Origin: Flavobacterium sp. Leaf82
GTDB lineage: Bacteria > Bacteroidota > Bacteroidia > Flavobacteriales > Flavobacteriaceae
NCBI RefSeq assembly: GCF_001422725.1
Contig: NZ_LMMA01000004.1
Coordinates: 28,852-92,851 of the forward strand
Direction: 5' to 3'
Length of the DNA stretch: 64,000 bases
The translations under genes were made by a program, and so were the position numbers. The notes under the pieces were generated by a model, which worked only from the letters and a program-made list of their open reading frames with translations, had not been told where the DNA came from and did not search any database. This document shows positions 13,109 through 19,928 of this stretch, piece by piece (position 1 is the stretch's first letter; each line of letters begins with the position of its first letter).

Positions 13109-13214
13109 CAATTTTTTAGAATTAGTGAAAATTTGTGTAATTCGTGGCGAAAAATATTGTAGAAGTAAAAAACCTTTGCACCTTTGTAACTTAGCATCTC
13201 AGTACCTTAAAAAA

Positions 13215-13664
13215 ATGGAATTCAAACAAAAAATACATTCACATTACTTGCAAATGGTCCAGGACCGAATTGATGTTTTTAGGGACATGATTTCGGCTTT
13301 GACCGAAGATTCTAAAAACGATGCAAAAGGTTCTGCCGGTGATAAACATGAAACGGCTTTGTCAATGATGCATATCGAGCAGGAAAAATTGACCAATAAA
13401 CTAAAAGAAGCGATTACCCAAAAAGCAATTTTAGATAAAATTGACGCCACAAAAACTACTGAAAATATTATTTCTGGCAGTTTGGTAAAAGCTAACGGAA
13501 TTTACTTGTATGTAAGTGTAGCACTTCCTAAAATTACTATTGACGGAATAAATGTTATTGCACTTTCTCCGCAATCTCCTCTAGGTTCTCATTTAATGGG
13601 AAATAAAACAGGGTTTCAATTCGAAATAAATAAAACACATTATACTATTGAGAGTATTTTGTAA
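13215..13664 (+). CDS. small GreA/GreB-like protein
   Basis: From ATG 13215 this is a 149-residue protein. The N-terminal half is helical and charged (KIHSHYLQMVQDRIDVFRDM, then GDKHETALSMMHIEQEKL). The C-terminal part has SPLGSHLMGNKTGFQFEI, like the C-terminal domain of GreA/GreB transcript-cleavage factors (SPLGxALLGxxxGD). The acidic tip residues of true GreA are not obvious, and the N-terminal coiled coil is short. It may act on RNA polymerase as a Gre-fold regulator, but this is unproven. Similar small flavobacterial proteins sometimes carry the label 3-oxoacyl-ACP synthase, which nothing in the sequence supports. The start avoids 30 upstream codons that lie in repeat DNA. Confidence 0.7.
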   Translation: MEFKQKIHSHYLQMVQDRIDVFRDMISALTEDSKNDAKGSAGDKHETALSMMHIEQEKLTNKLKEAITQKAILDKIDATKTTENIISGSLVKANGIYLYVSVALPKITIDGINVIALSPQSPLGSHLMGNKTGFQFEINKTHYTIESIL

Positions 13665-13693
13665 CTTGTTTTTATTGACTTATCTCTTTTTTT

Positions 13694-13780
13694 TGTCATT
13701 TCGCCGTAAGGAGAAATCACCTCTAATATTCGGCAACAATGCTTACTTTGCTTGTTTGATTTCTTCTTACGTTGAAATGA
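13694..13780. repeat. inverted pair of the TCATTTCG...GAGAAATC dispersed repeat
   Basis: The left arm 13694-13718 (TGTCATTTCGCCGTAAGGAG then AAATC) and the right arm 13758-13780 pair with few mismatches. The same word recurs at 24424-24447, 37655-37680, 37765-37791 and, inverted, at 37876-37898. The rest of the 431-base gap (13665-14095) is AT-rich, with a terminator at 13912 and nothing else recognisable. Confidence 0.6.
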
Positions 13781-13911
13781 TAATATGAAGGAAAACAATA
13801 ATCCTTCAATCCTTTTCTTTCGTCTCATTATCAATTTCTCAATGATTTTTAAATATCGTAGAATTTACCTCAAATATCTCTTTAAAATTTTACATTTTGT
13901 ATTTTGATTAA

Positions 13912-13948
13912 GCTCAAAATTGAAATTTTCAAGTTTGAGCCTTTTTTT
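13912..13948 (+). terminator. rho-independent-type terminator
   Basis: GCTCAAAATTGAAA pairs with TTTTCAAGTTTGAGC, followed by CTTTTTTT. It lies about 250 bases after the GreA-like gene and about 150 before asnB, so it would insulate the two. Confidence 0.6.
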
Positions 13949-14095
13949 AATGCTAAAATTTTACATTTTATATGTAAAAACAAATTTATGGTTTAAAATT
14001 ATAACTAAAATTGATATATGTGTTTTTCAATTGTAACTGTTAACGCATCTTTGCCTTATCAAAATGAATTTTAAACAAATAAAAAATATATAATT

Positions 14096-15772
14096 ATGTG
14101 TGGAATCGTATGTGCCTTTGATCTAAAGCAAAAAGCTGAAACATTAAGACCTCAAGTATTAGAAATGTCTAAAATCATTCGTCACCGTGGACCGGACTGG
14201 AGCGGAATTTATAGCAATGATAAAGCAATTCTTTCTCATGAGCGTTTAGCAATTGTAGATCCGGCTTCAGGAAAACAGCCTTTATTTACAGAAGATAAAA
14301 AATTGGTTTTAGCTGCAAATGGTGAAATATACAACCACAGAGAATTACGTAAACAATTTGAAGGAAAATATAACTTTCAGACAGAAAGTGACTGTGAAGT
14401 TATCCTGGCTCTTTACAAAGAAAAAGGACCTCATTTTGTAGATGAAATGAACGGAATCTTTGGATTTGCAATCTATGATGTAGAAAAAGATGAGTATTTT
14501 ATTGCTCGTGACCACATGGGAATCATTCCACTTTATATTGGTTGGGATCAACACGGAACTTTCTACGTAGCTTCAGAATTGAAAGCTTTAGAAGGATACT
14601 GTACAAAAATCCAATTGTTTCCTCCGGGACATTATATGACAAGCAAAGACGGTGAATTTGTACAATGGTACAAAAGAGACTGGACAGATTATGATGCAGT
14701 AAAAGACAACGAAACAAGTATTCCTGCAATTAAAGAAGCATTAGAAGCTGCGGTTCACAGACAATTAATGAGTGATGTTCCTTACGGAGTTTTACTTTCG
14801 GGAGGTTTAGATTCGTCTATTACTTCGGCTGTAGCCAAAAAATTTGCACAAAAACGTATTGAGTCAGATGATACAACAGATGCTTGGTATCCGCAATTAC
14901 ACTCTTTCTCAGTAGGATTAGACGGTTCTCCGGATTTAGCAGCAGCTCAAATTGTTGCAAAACATATCGGGACGATTCACCACGAAATTAAATTTACGAT
15001 TCAGGAAGGTTTAGATGCAGTTCGTGATGTAATTTATAACCTTGAAACGTATGATGTAACGACTGTTAGAGCATCAACACCAATGTGGTTAATGGCGAGA
15101 GTTATTAAATCAATGGGAATCAAAATGGTTCTTTCAGGAGAAGGTGCAGATGAGTTATTTGGAGGATATTTATACTTTCATAAAGCACCAAATGCAAGAG
15201 AGTTTCACGAAGAAAACGTTCGTAAATTAAGTAAATTACATATGTATGACTGTTTGCGTGCTAACAAAAGTTTGGCAGCATGGGGAATCGAAGGTCGCGT
15301 ACCGTTCTTAGACAAAGAATTTATGGATGTTGCAATGCGCATCAACCCACAAGATAAAATGATCAACAAAGAGCACCCAATGGAAAAATGGGTTGTTCGT
15401 AAAGCTTTTGAAGATATGTTGCCGGAAAGTGTAGCATGGAGGCAAAAAGAACAATTCTCTGATGGAGTAGGATACAGCTGGATTGATACTTTGAAAGAAG
15501 TGGTAGCCAAAGAAGTTTCGGATGAGCAATTGGCAAATGCGAAATATAAATTCCCATTGCAAACTCCAACTTCTAAAGAAGAGTATTACTATCGTTCAAT
15601 CTTTGCAGAACATTTTCCTAGTGATGCAGCAGCTTTATGTGTTCCTCAGGAAGCAAGTGTAGCTTGTAGTACAAAAATCGCTTTAGAGTGGGATGAGGCA
15701 TTCAAAAACATGAATGATCCTTCAGGAAGAGCAGTTGCAAGTGTACATGATGACGCTTACGCCAAAGCATAA
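14096..15772 (+). CDS. asnB: asparagine synthetase B (glutamine-hydrolysing)
   Basis: This 558-residue enzyme makes asparagine from aspartate, ATP and glutamine in the cytosol. The N-terminal glutaminase domain is complete: the nucleophile Cys2 (MCGIVCAF), HRGPDWSG (30-37), Arg50 in HERLAIVD, Asn75 and Glu77 in NGEIYN, and Asp in SDCEVIL near 100. The synthetase domain has the ATP loop LLSGGLDSS (about 232-240), SGEGADELFGGYLYFHKAP and WRQKEQFSDGVGYSW. Length and motif wording are very close to E. coli AsnB. It has its own terminator (15813) and is followed by a paralogue that has lost the glutaminase residues. Confidence 0.96.
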   Translation: MCGIVCAFDLKQKAETLRPQVLEMSKIIRHRGPDWSGIYSNDKAILSHERLAIVDPASGKQPLFTEDKKLVLAANGEIYNHRELRKQFEGKYNFQTESDCEVILALYKEKGPHFVDEMNGIFGFAIYDVEKDEYFIARDHMGIIPLYIGWDQHGTFYVASELKALEGYCTKIQLFPPGHYMTSKDGEFVQWYKRDWTDYDAVKDNETSIPAIKEALEAAVHRQLMSDVPYGVLLSGGLDSSITSAVAKKFAQKRIESDDTTDAWYPQLHSFSVGLDGSPDLAAAQIVAKHIGTIHHEIKFTIQEGLDAVRDVIYNLETYDVTTVRASTPMWLMARVIKSMGIKMVLSGEGADELFGGYLYFHKAPNAREFHEENVRKLSKLHMYDCLRANKSLAAWGIEGRVPFLDKEFMDVAMRINPQDKMINKEHPMEKWVVRKAFEDMLPESVAWRQKEQFSDGVGYSWIDTLKEVVAKEVSDEQLANAKYKFPLQTPTSKEEYYYRSIFAEHFPSDAAALCVPQEASVACSTKIALEWDEAFKNMNDPSGRAVASVHDDAYAKA

Positions 15773-15812
15773 ATAAGAATTTTAGAATTAGTATATATTA
15801 TATTTCTTGAAA

Positions 15813-15839
15813 GACGTTCTCAATCCTGAGAGCGTTTTT
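15813..15839 (+). terminator. terminator after asnB
   Basis: ACGTTCTCA pairs with TGAGAGCGT (one G-U) around the loop ATCC, followed by TTTTT. The rest of the 313-base gap to 16085 is AT-rich. It probably holds the promoter of the second synthetase gene, but no clear TAnnTTTG was placed. Confidence 0.75.
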
Positions 15840-16085
15840 CTTGTCTAATAATGTTAAATTCTATTATTTCAGCCACTTGAAGATAATTATTTAAGTTTCT
15901 TTTTTATATTTGGCATTCGCCCGAAATAAAATTAAACCGCTTATATTGTAGCTGTTTAAGTACAGAAAAGAGTAGGTTTGTATTTGGTTTAGCTCAAAAT
16001 TAGAATAATATAATAGATTTTTATACTTAGAAAGCTTTTTATAGCTGTAAGTAAAAAAATATAATAAATAAAAAAATAGAATAGT

Positions 16086-17702
16086 ATGTCTGGATTATTG
16101 GCCGTTATTGGTAAAGGAAAAGACCCGCAACTCGTAAAAGAGCTTTCTACAAGAATGTCGCATCGTGGTCCCGATGAGAGTGATTTACATATTATGGAAA
16201 ATGGCAGCATTATTTGCCATGAAAGTTTGTCGATTATCGATTTGAAATCAGGCAAACAGCCTATTCAGGGAACTGGTAAAGCCTGGATGGTACATGATGG
16301 AGAAATTTATAATTATCAGGAATTAAAAGACACCGTTTTAAAAGATCACACTTTTAGAACAAAATCAGATTCTGAAGTAATCGTGCATTTGTACGAAGAA
16401 TTTGGATATAAGTTTTGTAATATGCTCGATGGAGATTTTGCTTTTGTGATTGTCGATGGAGACAATTATATTGCGGCAAGAGATGCAGTTGGTGTTAAGC
16501 CTTTGTATTACGGACTTGACGAAAGAGGCAGGATTTATTTTTCGTCAGAAATGAAATCTATTGCAGATCAATGTAAATCATTTTCGACTTTTCCTCCGGG
16601 ACATTATTATACAGGAAAAACAGGATTCGTAAAATATTATAATCCGGAATATGAAGATCATTCTAATGCTAATAAATCGTTAGATCTGGATCTTGTTCGG
16701 GAATCGTTAATCAATGCAACGCGTAAACGTTTAATGAGCGAAGTTCCGGTTGGGGTCTTACTTTCAGGAGGTTTAGATTCGTCATTAACATCTGCAATTG
16801 CGGCTCGATTATTAAAAGAAAACGGTAAAAAGCTAAAATCTTTTTCTATAGGTTTAGATGCAGATTCACCGGATAATATTGCAGCAAGAAAAGCAGCTGA
16901 ATTTTTAGAAACAGAACATCACGAAATACATTTTACAGTAGAAGAAGGTGTTGCTATTTTAGAAAAAGTAATCTATCATATTGAGACTTACGATATTATT
17001 TCGGTAAGATCAGGAGTTCCAATGTATTTGTTAGCAAAAGCAATCGCAGATCAGGGTGTTAAAGTAATTCTTTCCGGTGAAGGCGCAGATGAAGTTTTTG
17101 GAGGTCATTTGTATTTTAGAAATGCACCTTCTGCAGAGGAATTTCAGGATGAAACGATCGAAAGAGTGCAGAAATTATTTACTGCCGATTTATTGCGTGC
17201 CGATAAAACAACAATGGCACACGGATTAGAAGCAAGGATTCCGTTTTTGGACAAAGAGTTTTTAGATGTTTCAATTCGAATTAAAACAGAAGAAAAACAG
17301 CCAAAAACATACGATAATGTCGAGAAATACATTTTAAGAAAAGCATTTGATACGCCTGATAAACCATATTTACCAGCAGAAATTTTATGGAGACAAAAAG
17401 AACAGTTTTCTGATGGTGTAGGATACAATTGGGTAGATGAATTGATTGAATATTGTGCGGGACAAGTTTCGGACGAGCAATTAGCCGGAGCAAGCACTGA
17501 ATTCCCTTATAATTCGCCAACTACAAAAGAAGCTTATTTATACAGATCCATATTCCATAAATTTTATCCACAAGTCAGCGCTGCGCAAACAGTTCGAAAA
17601 TGGATACCAAAATGGCAGGAAAACCAGGATCCAAGCGGAAGAGCGAATGCTGCTCACGTAAAAGCAGATATAGAAATATCAAAAGCCGGAGTAACAGTTT
17701 AG
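16086..17702 (+). CDS. asparagine synthetase-like protein with inactive glutaminase domain
   Basis: This 538-residue paralogue of the preceding AsnB has the same two domains, but the glutaminase site is broken. The nucleophile is Ser2 (MSGLLAVI). The Arg of HERL is Ser47 (HESLSIID). The Asn of NGEIYN is Asp71 (HDGEIYN). Glu73 and the Asp of SDSEVIV remain. The synthetase half is intact: LLSGGLDSS (about 223-231), SGEGADEVFGGHLYF and WRQKEQFSDGVGYNW. It may therefore use free ammonia, borrow ammonia from its neighbour, act on another carboxylate, or be regulatory. The start is fixed by the domain beginning. Flanking terminators at 15813 and 17756 suggest a single-gene transcript. Confidence 0.9.
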   Translation: MSGLLAVIGKGKDPQLVKELSTRMSHRGPDESDLHIMENGSIICHESLSIIDLKSGKQPIQGTGKAWMVHDGEIYNYQELKDTVLKDHTFRTKSDSEVIVHLYEEFGYKFCNMLDGDFAFVIVDGDNYIAARDAVGVKPLYYGLDERGRIYFSSEMKSIADQCKSFSTFPPGHYYTGKTGFVKYYNPEYEDHSNANKSLDLDLVRESLINATRKRLMSEVPVGVLLSGGLDSSLTSAIAARLLKENGKKLKSFSIGLDADSPDNIAARKAAEFLETEHHEIHFTVEEGVAILEKVIYHIETYDIISVRSGVPMYLLAKAIADQGVKVILSGEGADEVFGGHLYFRNAPSAEEFQDETIERVQKLFTADLLRADKTTMAHGLEARIPFLDKEFLDVSIRIKTEEKQPKTYDNVEKYILRKAFDTPDKPYLPAEILWRQKEQFSDGVGYNWVDELIEYCAGQVSDEQLAGASTEFPYNSPTTKEAYLYRSIFHKFYPQVSAAQTVRKWIPKWQENQDPSGRANAAHVKADIEISKAGVTV

Positions 17703-17755
17703 AAATTCAAAAAAAATAAATTCTAAAATTATAATTTAGAGTCAAATAACAGAAG

Positions 17756-17794
17756 TCCGAAACTACATTTCAAGTGTTGGTTTCGGATTTTTTT
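17756..17794 (+). terminator. terminator after the asparagine synthetase paralogue
   Basis: TCCGAAAC at 17756-17763 pairs with GTTTCGGA at 17780-17787, followed by seven T. It ends the synthetase transcript before gyrB. Confidence 0.8.
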
Positions 17795-17941
17795 ATGTTA
17801 TTTCTATTTTTTGAATTTGGAATTTGTGAAAATTAGAATTTAAAGTTGGCTTTTGTCGTTTTTTATGTTTTTTTGCACAATAGTGTTAATAACTTAAGTG
17901 CTTTAAGTCGTATTTTAACGGATATATAATTTGCGTTTTTA

Positions 17942-17949
17942 TATATTTG
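17942..17949 (+). promoter_or_regulatory. candidate -7 box of gyrB
   Basis: TATATTTG fits TAnnTTTG exactly, 38 bases before the gyrB start. No -33 TTTG was found at the usual spacing, so the call rests on the -7 box and its position. Confidence 0.5.
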
Positions 17950-17957
17950 CGTGTTAG

Positions 17958-19928
<1,971 letters not shown>

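Follow-up and report, generated by a model that had tools for sequence, protein, structure and literature searches.

The 64,000-nucleotide stretch of Flavobacterium sp. Leaf82 DNA analyzed here (the window) encodes, next to an asparagine synthetase B (AsnB) with an intact glutaminase triad, an AsnB paralogue in which the three glutaminase residues Cys, Arg, and Asn are replaced by Ser2, Ser47, and Asp71. This paralogue is a genuine variant within a known enzyme family, shared by a whole clade, and its new role is putative. The reading we favor, at a little below an even chance, is that the paralogue would be a ligase that is fed by ammonia and acts on aspartate or a close analogue of it, freed from asparagine duty beside AsnB. 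More tentatively, we propose that the slot between a gene with the working name duf150 and gyrB swaps asparagine modules, and that the displaced synthetase may have become either such a ligase or a ligand-sensing AsnB partner, through a three-residue switch-off of its glutaminase and a retuning of its acceptor side. The features of the locus, in window coordinates and all on the + strand, are:

13125..13664, +, duf150 (working name), left boundary gene of the asparagine slot
14096..15772, +, AsnB, 558 aa, open frame, glutaminase triad intact
15809..15840, +, hairpin with T-run, intrinsic-terminator-like, 3' of asnB (−18.9 kcal/mol, z −5.8)
16086..17702, +, AsnB paralogue, 538 aa, open frame, glutaminase site dismantled (Ser2, Ser47, Asp71)
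16089..16091, +, Ser2 codon TCT, replacing the Ntn nucleophile Cys
16224..16226, +, Ser47 codon AGT, replacing Arg50 of AsnB (human Arg-48)
16296..16298, +, Asp71 codon GAT, replacing Asn75 of AsnB (human Asn-74)
16998..17000, +, Ile305 codon ATT in the aspartate segment, corresponding to AsnB Thr322 and human mature Thr336
17751..17792, +, hairpin with T-run, intrinsic-terminator-like, 3' of the paralogue (−19.1 kcal/mol, z −6.2)
17988..19928, +, right boundary gene of the slot, which we take to be gyrB

With 20 residues fewer than the AsnB of the window, the paralogue is 44% identical to it over the aligned part. Both genes exceed the NCBIfam cut-offs for asparagine synthase B, the paralogue with 687.8 bits for NF006949 (curated cut-off 499) and 431.7 bits for TIGR01536 (curated cut-off 267.1), and a Pfam scan of the paralogue returned only PF00733, PF13537, PF13522, and PF12481. 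It matched E. coli AsnB (1CT9) with 466 bits over residues 18–504 and human asparagine synthetase (ASNS; 6GQ3) with 346 bits over residues 3–527. These two genes are the only full-length AsnB-type genes found in their genome (G000), the third match being short (E = 1.9e-4). An earlier note on this DNA had read the replacements as Cys2 to Ser2, Arg50 to Ser47 and Asn75 to Asp71, which is correct, and each triad change is reachable by one base from the codons of intact copies (TGT to TCT, CGT to AGT, and AAT to GAT). Gly72, Glu73, and Asp95 of the old glutamine pocket were retained in all 38 copies of the Ser/Ser/Asp set, from which the Cys, Arg, and Asn are gone. Serine is the nucleophile in some other Ntn enzymes, a point against the favored reading. 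An AlphaFold2 model of the paralogue (22 aligned sequences) had a mean pLDDT of 52.7 and was discarded as too poor for use.

Presence was called in a genus sample of 199 genomes, 167 of which were ≥90% complete and ≤5% contaminated, and the calls depend on this completeness. With matches under 1e-200 taken as paralogues, the paralogue occurred in 106 genomes, AsnB in 85, and both in 47. Paralogues in genomes without AsnB had the triad Cys/Arg/Asn in 59 of 59 cases, whereas the Cys was lost in 35 of the 47 genomes with both genes (12 Cys/Arg/Asn, 31 Ser/Ser/Asp, 1 Ser/Gly/Asp, and 3 Gly/Arg/Asn). Conversely, every Cys-less paralogue of the genus sample shared its genome with AsnB (35/35). Loss of the glutaminase residues is confined in the sample to genomes with AsnB, a confinement that represents very few independent events, with just two changes in AsnB presence along the tree of paralogues. 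A phylum sample of 392 genomes added 11 genus copies, of which six were Ser/Ser/Asp, each with AsnB just upstream, and five were intact; it contained no match above 60% identity outside the family of Flavobacterium. Within this family but outside the genus, the paralogue was found in 11 of 296 genomes, always with an intact triad. The best 80 matching named genomes comprised 64 with Ser/Ser/Asp and 16 with intact copies, so that the substitutions are not unique to one assembly, and an assembly error or chance was rejected as their origin. AsnB lay on the same stretch as the paralogue in 61 of these 64 genomes; in the remaining three, the stretch either starts at a contig edge (two cases) or has no AsnB nearby (L255). 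The view that the same substitutions recur next to asnB in other Flavobacterium also held: 40 of the 41 copies of the Cys-less clade (position 2 Ser in 38, Gly in 3) have AsnB as a same-strand neighbor, an adjacency that goes with a shared chromosomal slot. The exception is G099, where AsnB is on a different contig.

AsnA, present in nine of the 199 genomes, never co-occurred with the paralogue, and neither AsnA nor GatB was found in the 106 paralogue genomes; the genome of the window itself contained no AsnA and no PF03590. Asparaginyl-tRNA synthetase was present in all 20 genomes tested for it, seven of them paralogue-only. Therefore, where the intact paralogue is the sole candidate gene, it is likely the asparagine synthetase of its genome. 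Since the triad is intact in genomes without AsnB and was lost beside AsnB, the paralogue probably began as an intact enzyme whose glutaminase was lost later; we infer that a complete asparagine synthetase was released from its duty in genomes where AsnB adjoins it.

Phylogenetic trees were built with the three trait columns masked. All 41 Cys-less copies formed one clade, both in a tree of 127 rows (SH-aLRT 100) and in a careful tree of 53 rows (100/100), and the copies nearest to this clade were intact ones that already share a genome with AsnB (G004 and G760).

In three copies (L032, L146, and L148 from genomes G060, G184, and G066), the Cys alone is replaced, by Gly, and the Arg and Asn are retained. 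These were placed inside the Cys-less clade, beside G161. A clade of Ser/Ser/Asp and Ser/Gly/Asp copies that excludes them was 25 log units worse but was not rejected by the AU test (p = 0.082), which leaves their status between a retained intermediate and a reversal. In gyrB and asnB trees, the three genomes fall among the Ser/Ser/Asp genomes and are split, a disagreement between trees which suggests that these copies were exchanged between species.

The slot (positions 13665–17987 of the window, and its counterparts in relatives) contains AsnB, the paralogue, both, GatA with a GatB-AspRS fusion, or nothing. In paralogue-only genomes, the paralogue lies before gyrB at ≤6 kb in 49 of 59 cases, some contigs being too short, with duf150 ahead in 51; AsnB stood directly before gyrB in 19 of the 20 AsnB-only genomes examined (of 38). 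GatB_N occurred in 23 of the 199 genus genomes, and 21 of these were among the 46 genomes that lack AsnA, AsnB, and the paralogue. The other two have AsnB: G040 encodes a separate 488-aa protein, and G074 (75% complete) has a partial GatB_N match in a 911-aa frame. In the 21 genomes, the GatB_N frame has a length of 1069–1136 aa in 20 and of 782 aa in G062, and GatB_N starts 3.5–6.4 kb upstream of gyrB on the same strand in the 18 that have gyrB on the same contig. Fusion of GatB to a class II aspartyl-type tRNA synthetase with a GAD domain was seen by Pfam in G010 (GatB_N, GatB_Yqey, OB, tRNA-synt_2, and GAD, with a GatA-like amidase alongside in the slot), by similarity in G149 and G112, and, for G005 and G025, by a synthetase match within the same frame. 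In three loci that were read, GatA and then the GatB-AspRS fusion lie between duf150 and gyrB:

L289, 7372–10704 and 10704–12101, −, long GatB_N frame and GatA-like amidase as a pair (also in L312 and L313)
L289, 12103–12396, −, 97-aa ORF just before GatA, where a GatC subunit would lie

Together with GatA, the fusion is a candidate for tRNA-dependent asparagine formation by a single chain. Deinococcus and Thermus are known to have this route in the form of separate proteins (PMC4206432), and the literature searched contained no title on a GatB-AspRS fusion in Flavobacterium. AsnA was beside gyrB in none of its nine genomes (in four it lies on another contig, and in five at a distance of at least about 0.8 Mb on the gyrB contig), and the slot was empty in the three AsnA genomes read. 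The slot is thus common to alternative asparagine routes, and its contents were probably exchanged by recombination through the conserved flanks.

Other contents of the slot were noted as well. Neither AsnA, AsnB, the paralogue, nor GatB_N was found in 25 of the 199 genomes (for example G022, G027, G072, and G173), several of which are 99% complete; these could be asparagine auxotrophs or use another route. Among 15 of them that were read, the slot was empty in 11, held another ORF in three, and had another neighborhood in one. In a number of species, a protein of about 541–555 aa, which we take to be an amidohydrolase, precedes the paralogue or AsnB in the slot; it is missing there in the window. 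A 910–911-aa ORF, presumably an M16 zinc peptidase, lies between the paralogue and gyrB in the Ser/Ser/Asp genomes G054, G103, G120, G186, G099, and G657 and is absent at this place in the window. Examples are:

L184, 3408–5042, +, and L140, 8415–10082, −, slot protein of about 541–555 aa (also in L196 and L203)
L185, 7034–9766, +, 910-aa protein between the paralogue and gyrB

The earlier note had described the ATP loop and the aspartate/AMP region as kept word for word. This was true for LLSGGLDSS, SGEGADE, and WRQKEQFSDGVGY, which have the same letters in the paralogue and AsnB, but not for the aspartate segment, which reads ETYDIISVRSGVPMY in the paralogue vs ETYDVTTVRASTPMW in AsnB. Sixteen listed residues that bind ATP, pyrophosphate and the intermediate (Ser227, Gly228, Gly229, Asp231, and Ser233 of the PP-loop, Asp303, Arg308, five of SGEGADE, Asp368, Arg371, Asp389, and Lys438) were all unchanged in 38 of 38 copies of the Ser/Ser/Asp set, a conservation that, measured against the background, is no more than suggestive (p = 0.068); 19 of the 38 have Thr instead of Ser232 in the PP-loop. 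The residues matching human Glu364, Asp367, Glu368, Asp400, and Arg403, which hold the amino-acid head group, were likewise unchanged in 38/38. In contrast, all 41 sampled paralogues without the Cys have Ile in place of Thr322 (AsnB numbering), and the same clade has Val for Thr328 and His for the nearby Tyr358. Thr322 corresponds to human mature Thr336 by reading of the 6GQ3 alignment (human chain number minus one); this site is mutated in asparagine synthetase deficiency, and its T336I exchange almost abolished glutamine-dependent activity (PMC6748925). Because the same Thr-to-Ile change is nearly fatal to the glutamine-dependent activity of the human enzyme, the Cys-less paralogue may, by analogy, make no asparagine at all. 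Of the 12 intact copies that occur with AsnB in the genus sample, four have Ile322 and two more have Val328; neither residue occurs in the 59 intact copies without AsnB. With just four changes on the tree, the Cys-less clade counted, this association of the acceptor-segment change with AsnB is a pattern and not a test; an independent-pair test of AsnB presence against the acceptor-site change yielded 1–2 pairs on starred branches and had no power. As the aspartate segment changed in the clade that lost the glutaminase residues and also in some glutaminase-intact paralogues beside AsnB, the notion of one site lost and the other kept was too simple.

From these sequence features we infer a loss of glutaminase activity, retained adenylation, ammonia as nitrogen donor, and an aspartate-like acceptor. 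In the favored ammonia-fed ligase, a second AsnB-type enzyme, once an intact asparagine synthetase, would have dropped its asparagine duty where AsnB shares its slot. In one clade, the aspartate segment would have altered (Thr322 to Ile, Thr328 to Val, Tyr358 to His) and the glutaminase would have been turned off at three residues that bind and cut glutamine; the remainder of that domain was retained, as were the listed residues that serve adenylation or contact ATP, pyrophosphate, or the amino-acid head group. The paralogue would then adenylate aspartate or a close analogue for attack by free ammonia, without glutamine, and the AsnB beside it would make asparagine from glutamine. In the absence of AsnA from the genome of the window, the ammonia route would not be redundant. 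The favored reading also draws on the distribution of the triad and the single clade of Cys-less copies, on the 16 unchanged adenylation residues, on the low omega of the dead N domain and its switch at three positions, and on the relaxed C-domain tunnel residues (both see below). A new role, as the earlier note had argued, is plausible, because glutaminase residues were lost in a conserved and still constrained protein, although its premise of a loss limited to one site did not stand.

The main rival is a non-catalytic AsnB partner, which we consider clearly less probable but serious: a pseudoenzyme that makes no amide and tunes AsnB, either by sensing a ligand in its rebuilt pocket or by binding to AsnB in mixed dimers or filaments. 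It ranks first among the rivals because it best explains the strong constraint on the dead domain. Codon-model omega was estimated for the N and C domains of the Ser/Ser/Asp set (38 copies; N 0.035, C 0.058), intact copies without AsnB (26 chosen; N 0.035, C 0.041), intact copies with AsnB (14; N 0.046, C 0.048), and AsnB (19; N 0.021, C 0.017). Pairwise median omega values had the same direction (0.050 and 0.094 vs 0.048 and 0.051). A column bootstrap of the C/N ratio gave 1.58 [1.12–2.35] for the Ser/Ser/Asp set, from ten hand-picked disjoint pairs, and 1.24 [0.81–1.70] for intact copies from 13 pairs, the two intervals overlapping. Among 85 N-domain positions that are ≥97% conserved in triad-intact copies, only 2, 47, and 71 acquired a different residue that is fixed throughout the Ser/Ser/Asp set, and three others turned variable. 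Of the 156 conserved C-domain positions, four switched (270, 299, 315, and 341) and 19 turned variable; Ile305 falls outside this set, since Ile also occurs there in four intact copies with an AsnB neighbor. The dismantling of the glutaminase is therefore narrow, and the dead N domain is held as strictly as the N domain of intact relatives. This constraint, together with the N-domain tunnel residues that were kept (see below), seems to exceed the needs of a plain ammonia enzyme and speaks against the ammonia-fed ligase. An AsnB partner is further consistent with the invariable company of AsnB in the genus sample, the retained pocket residues, and the T336I-type change, and co-assembly of yeast Asn1p and Asn2p is a precedent for interacting paralogues (PMC13142944). 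The 16 unchanged adenylation residues, however, go beyond what a scaffold needs, and asnB and the paralogue have separate terminator-like hairpins.

Next in order, and unlikely, is a plain ammonia-dependent asparagine synthetase, a home-made AsnA substitute fully active on aspartate. The C1A form of E. coli AsnB has ammonia activity. This form is also known as a structure (PMC6748925, PMC11615228), and the mutual exclusion of AsnA and the paralogue among the 199 genomes, the lack of AsnA in the genome of the window, and the kept aspartate head-group residues fit such an enzyme. It is at odds with the invariant Ile322 and the human T336I result; moreover, the acceptor-side change is not part of a donor switch, because glutaminase-intact copies next to AsnB show it too. 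Amidation of an entirely different acceptor, such as a cell-wall residue, appears improbable. Other AsnB relatives do this, those of Listeria and Bacillus amidating meso-diaminopimelate (PMC8554201), and the aspartate segment of the paralogue is altered, but the head-group residues for aspartate are unchanged, which makes a very different acceptor less likely, and the protein is shorter than AsnB.

More improbable still is a heteromer in which AsnB would feed ammonia through a tunnel to the synthetase site of the paralogue, as the earlier note had suggested. The same-strand adjacency of the two genes, seen in 40 of 41 cases, would suit it, as would part of the tunnel, for which the human residues Val-119, Val-141, Arg-142, Leu-255, Met-344, Ala-404, and Leu-415 (PMC11615228) were mapped onto the paralogue by reading of the 6GQ3 alignment. 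N-domain positions were kept (Val137 in 37/38, Lys138 in 38/38, and Asp117 in 37/38 copies, the last varying among intact copies), which does not fit a simple abandonment of the tunnel. In the C domain, by contrast, all tunnel residues that are conserved in intact copies had relaxed (Leu225, Met313, and Ala372, the counterparts of human Leu-255, Met-344, and Ala-404, kept in 15, 33, and 30 of 38; hypergeometric p = 0.0016 in a test picked after inspection of the data), and the position of human Leu-415 is variable in both the intact and the Ser/Ser/Asp sets. The heteromer is also disfavored by the separation of the genes in G099, by the synthetase site that AsnB itself possesses, and by the transcription signals: each gene has its own strong hairpin, which suggests separate transcripts. 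Both hairpins were found by folding; a terminator pattern scan of positions 15700–18000 returned none, and Rfam gave no match over 13500–18200. A promoter pattern scan of 15700–18000 found 20 sites vs 9.1 expected and was discarded, the sites being spread over coding sequence and both strands. A decaying duplicate heading for loss, finally, is the least probable reading: although the synthetase domain is mildly relaxed (omega 0.058 vs 0.041) and Ser/Ser/Asp copies outpace the neighboring AsnB (median dN 0.062 and 0.127 vs 0.012 and 0.015 in 8 genomes), omega is far below 1 in both domains, the listed catalytic residues are untouched, and the frame is full-length (534–538 aa) in all 64 named Ser/Ser/Asp genomes, so decay was rejected.

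Lys138 (window 16497–16499), at the place of the human tunnel-gate Arg-142, is Lys in 128 of 128 aligned paralogues and Ile in AsnB. Since this holds for all 128, the whole paralogue family may gate its tunnel like the human enzyme.

The locus offers a natural experiment in which a two-site enzyme was taken apart, with intact, partly (Gly/Arg/Asn) and fully dismantled forms in related species and the same neighborhood. This makes the purpose of a glutaminase-dead domain and shifts of acceptor specificity in AsnB-type ligases testable. Caution is advised with the family-level annotation of NCBIfam, which names the paralogue asparagine synthase B. We found no work on the Cys-less Flavobacterium paralogue in the open-access literature searched, a scope outside which most subscription journals fall.

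Among known systems, beta-lactam synthetase and carbapenam synthetase are relatives of AsnB that have no working glutaminase in their N-terminal domain; with 61 (1JGT) and 57 bits (1Q15), they are far more distant from the paralogue than 1CT9 with 466 bits. AsnA would share the nitrogen donor, if the ammonia-fed ligase is the right reading, but belongs to the unrelated family PF03590, which the paralogue lacks in the Pfam scan. In AsnB that amidates meso-diaminopimelate, the aspartate-binding D and R are lost and an extra loop is present (PMC8554201). The paralogue has Asp368 and Arg371, which may correspond to that D and R, in 38/38 copies and is shorter than AsnB. The AsnB enzymes 1CT9 and 6GQ3 resemble the paralogue in their long homology, the scores above the NCBIfam cut-offs and the listed adenylation residues, and differ from it by the glutaminase Cys, Arg, and Asn, the Thr at the place of Ile, and a tunnel wall that is partly relaxed in the paralogue. 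The intact Flavobacterium paralogue of the 59 AsnB-less genomes is of the same family, lies mostly in the same slot and has 60–80% identity, but retains Cys/Arg/Asn and Thr322.
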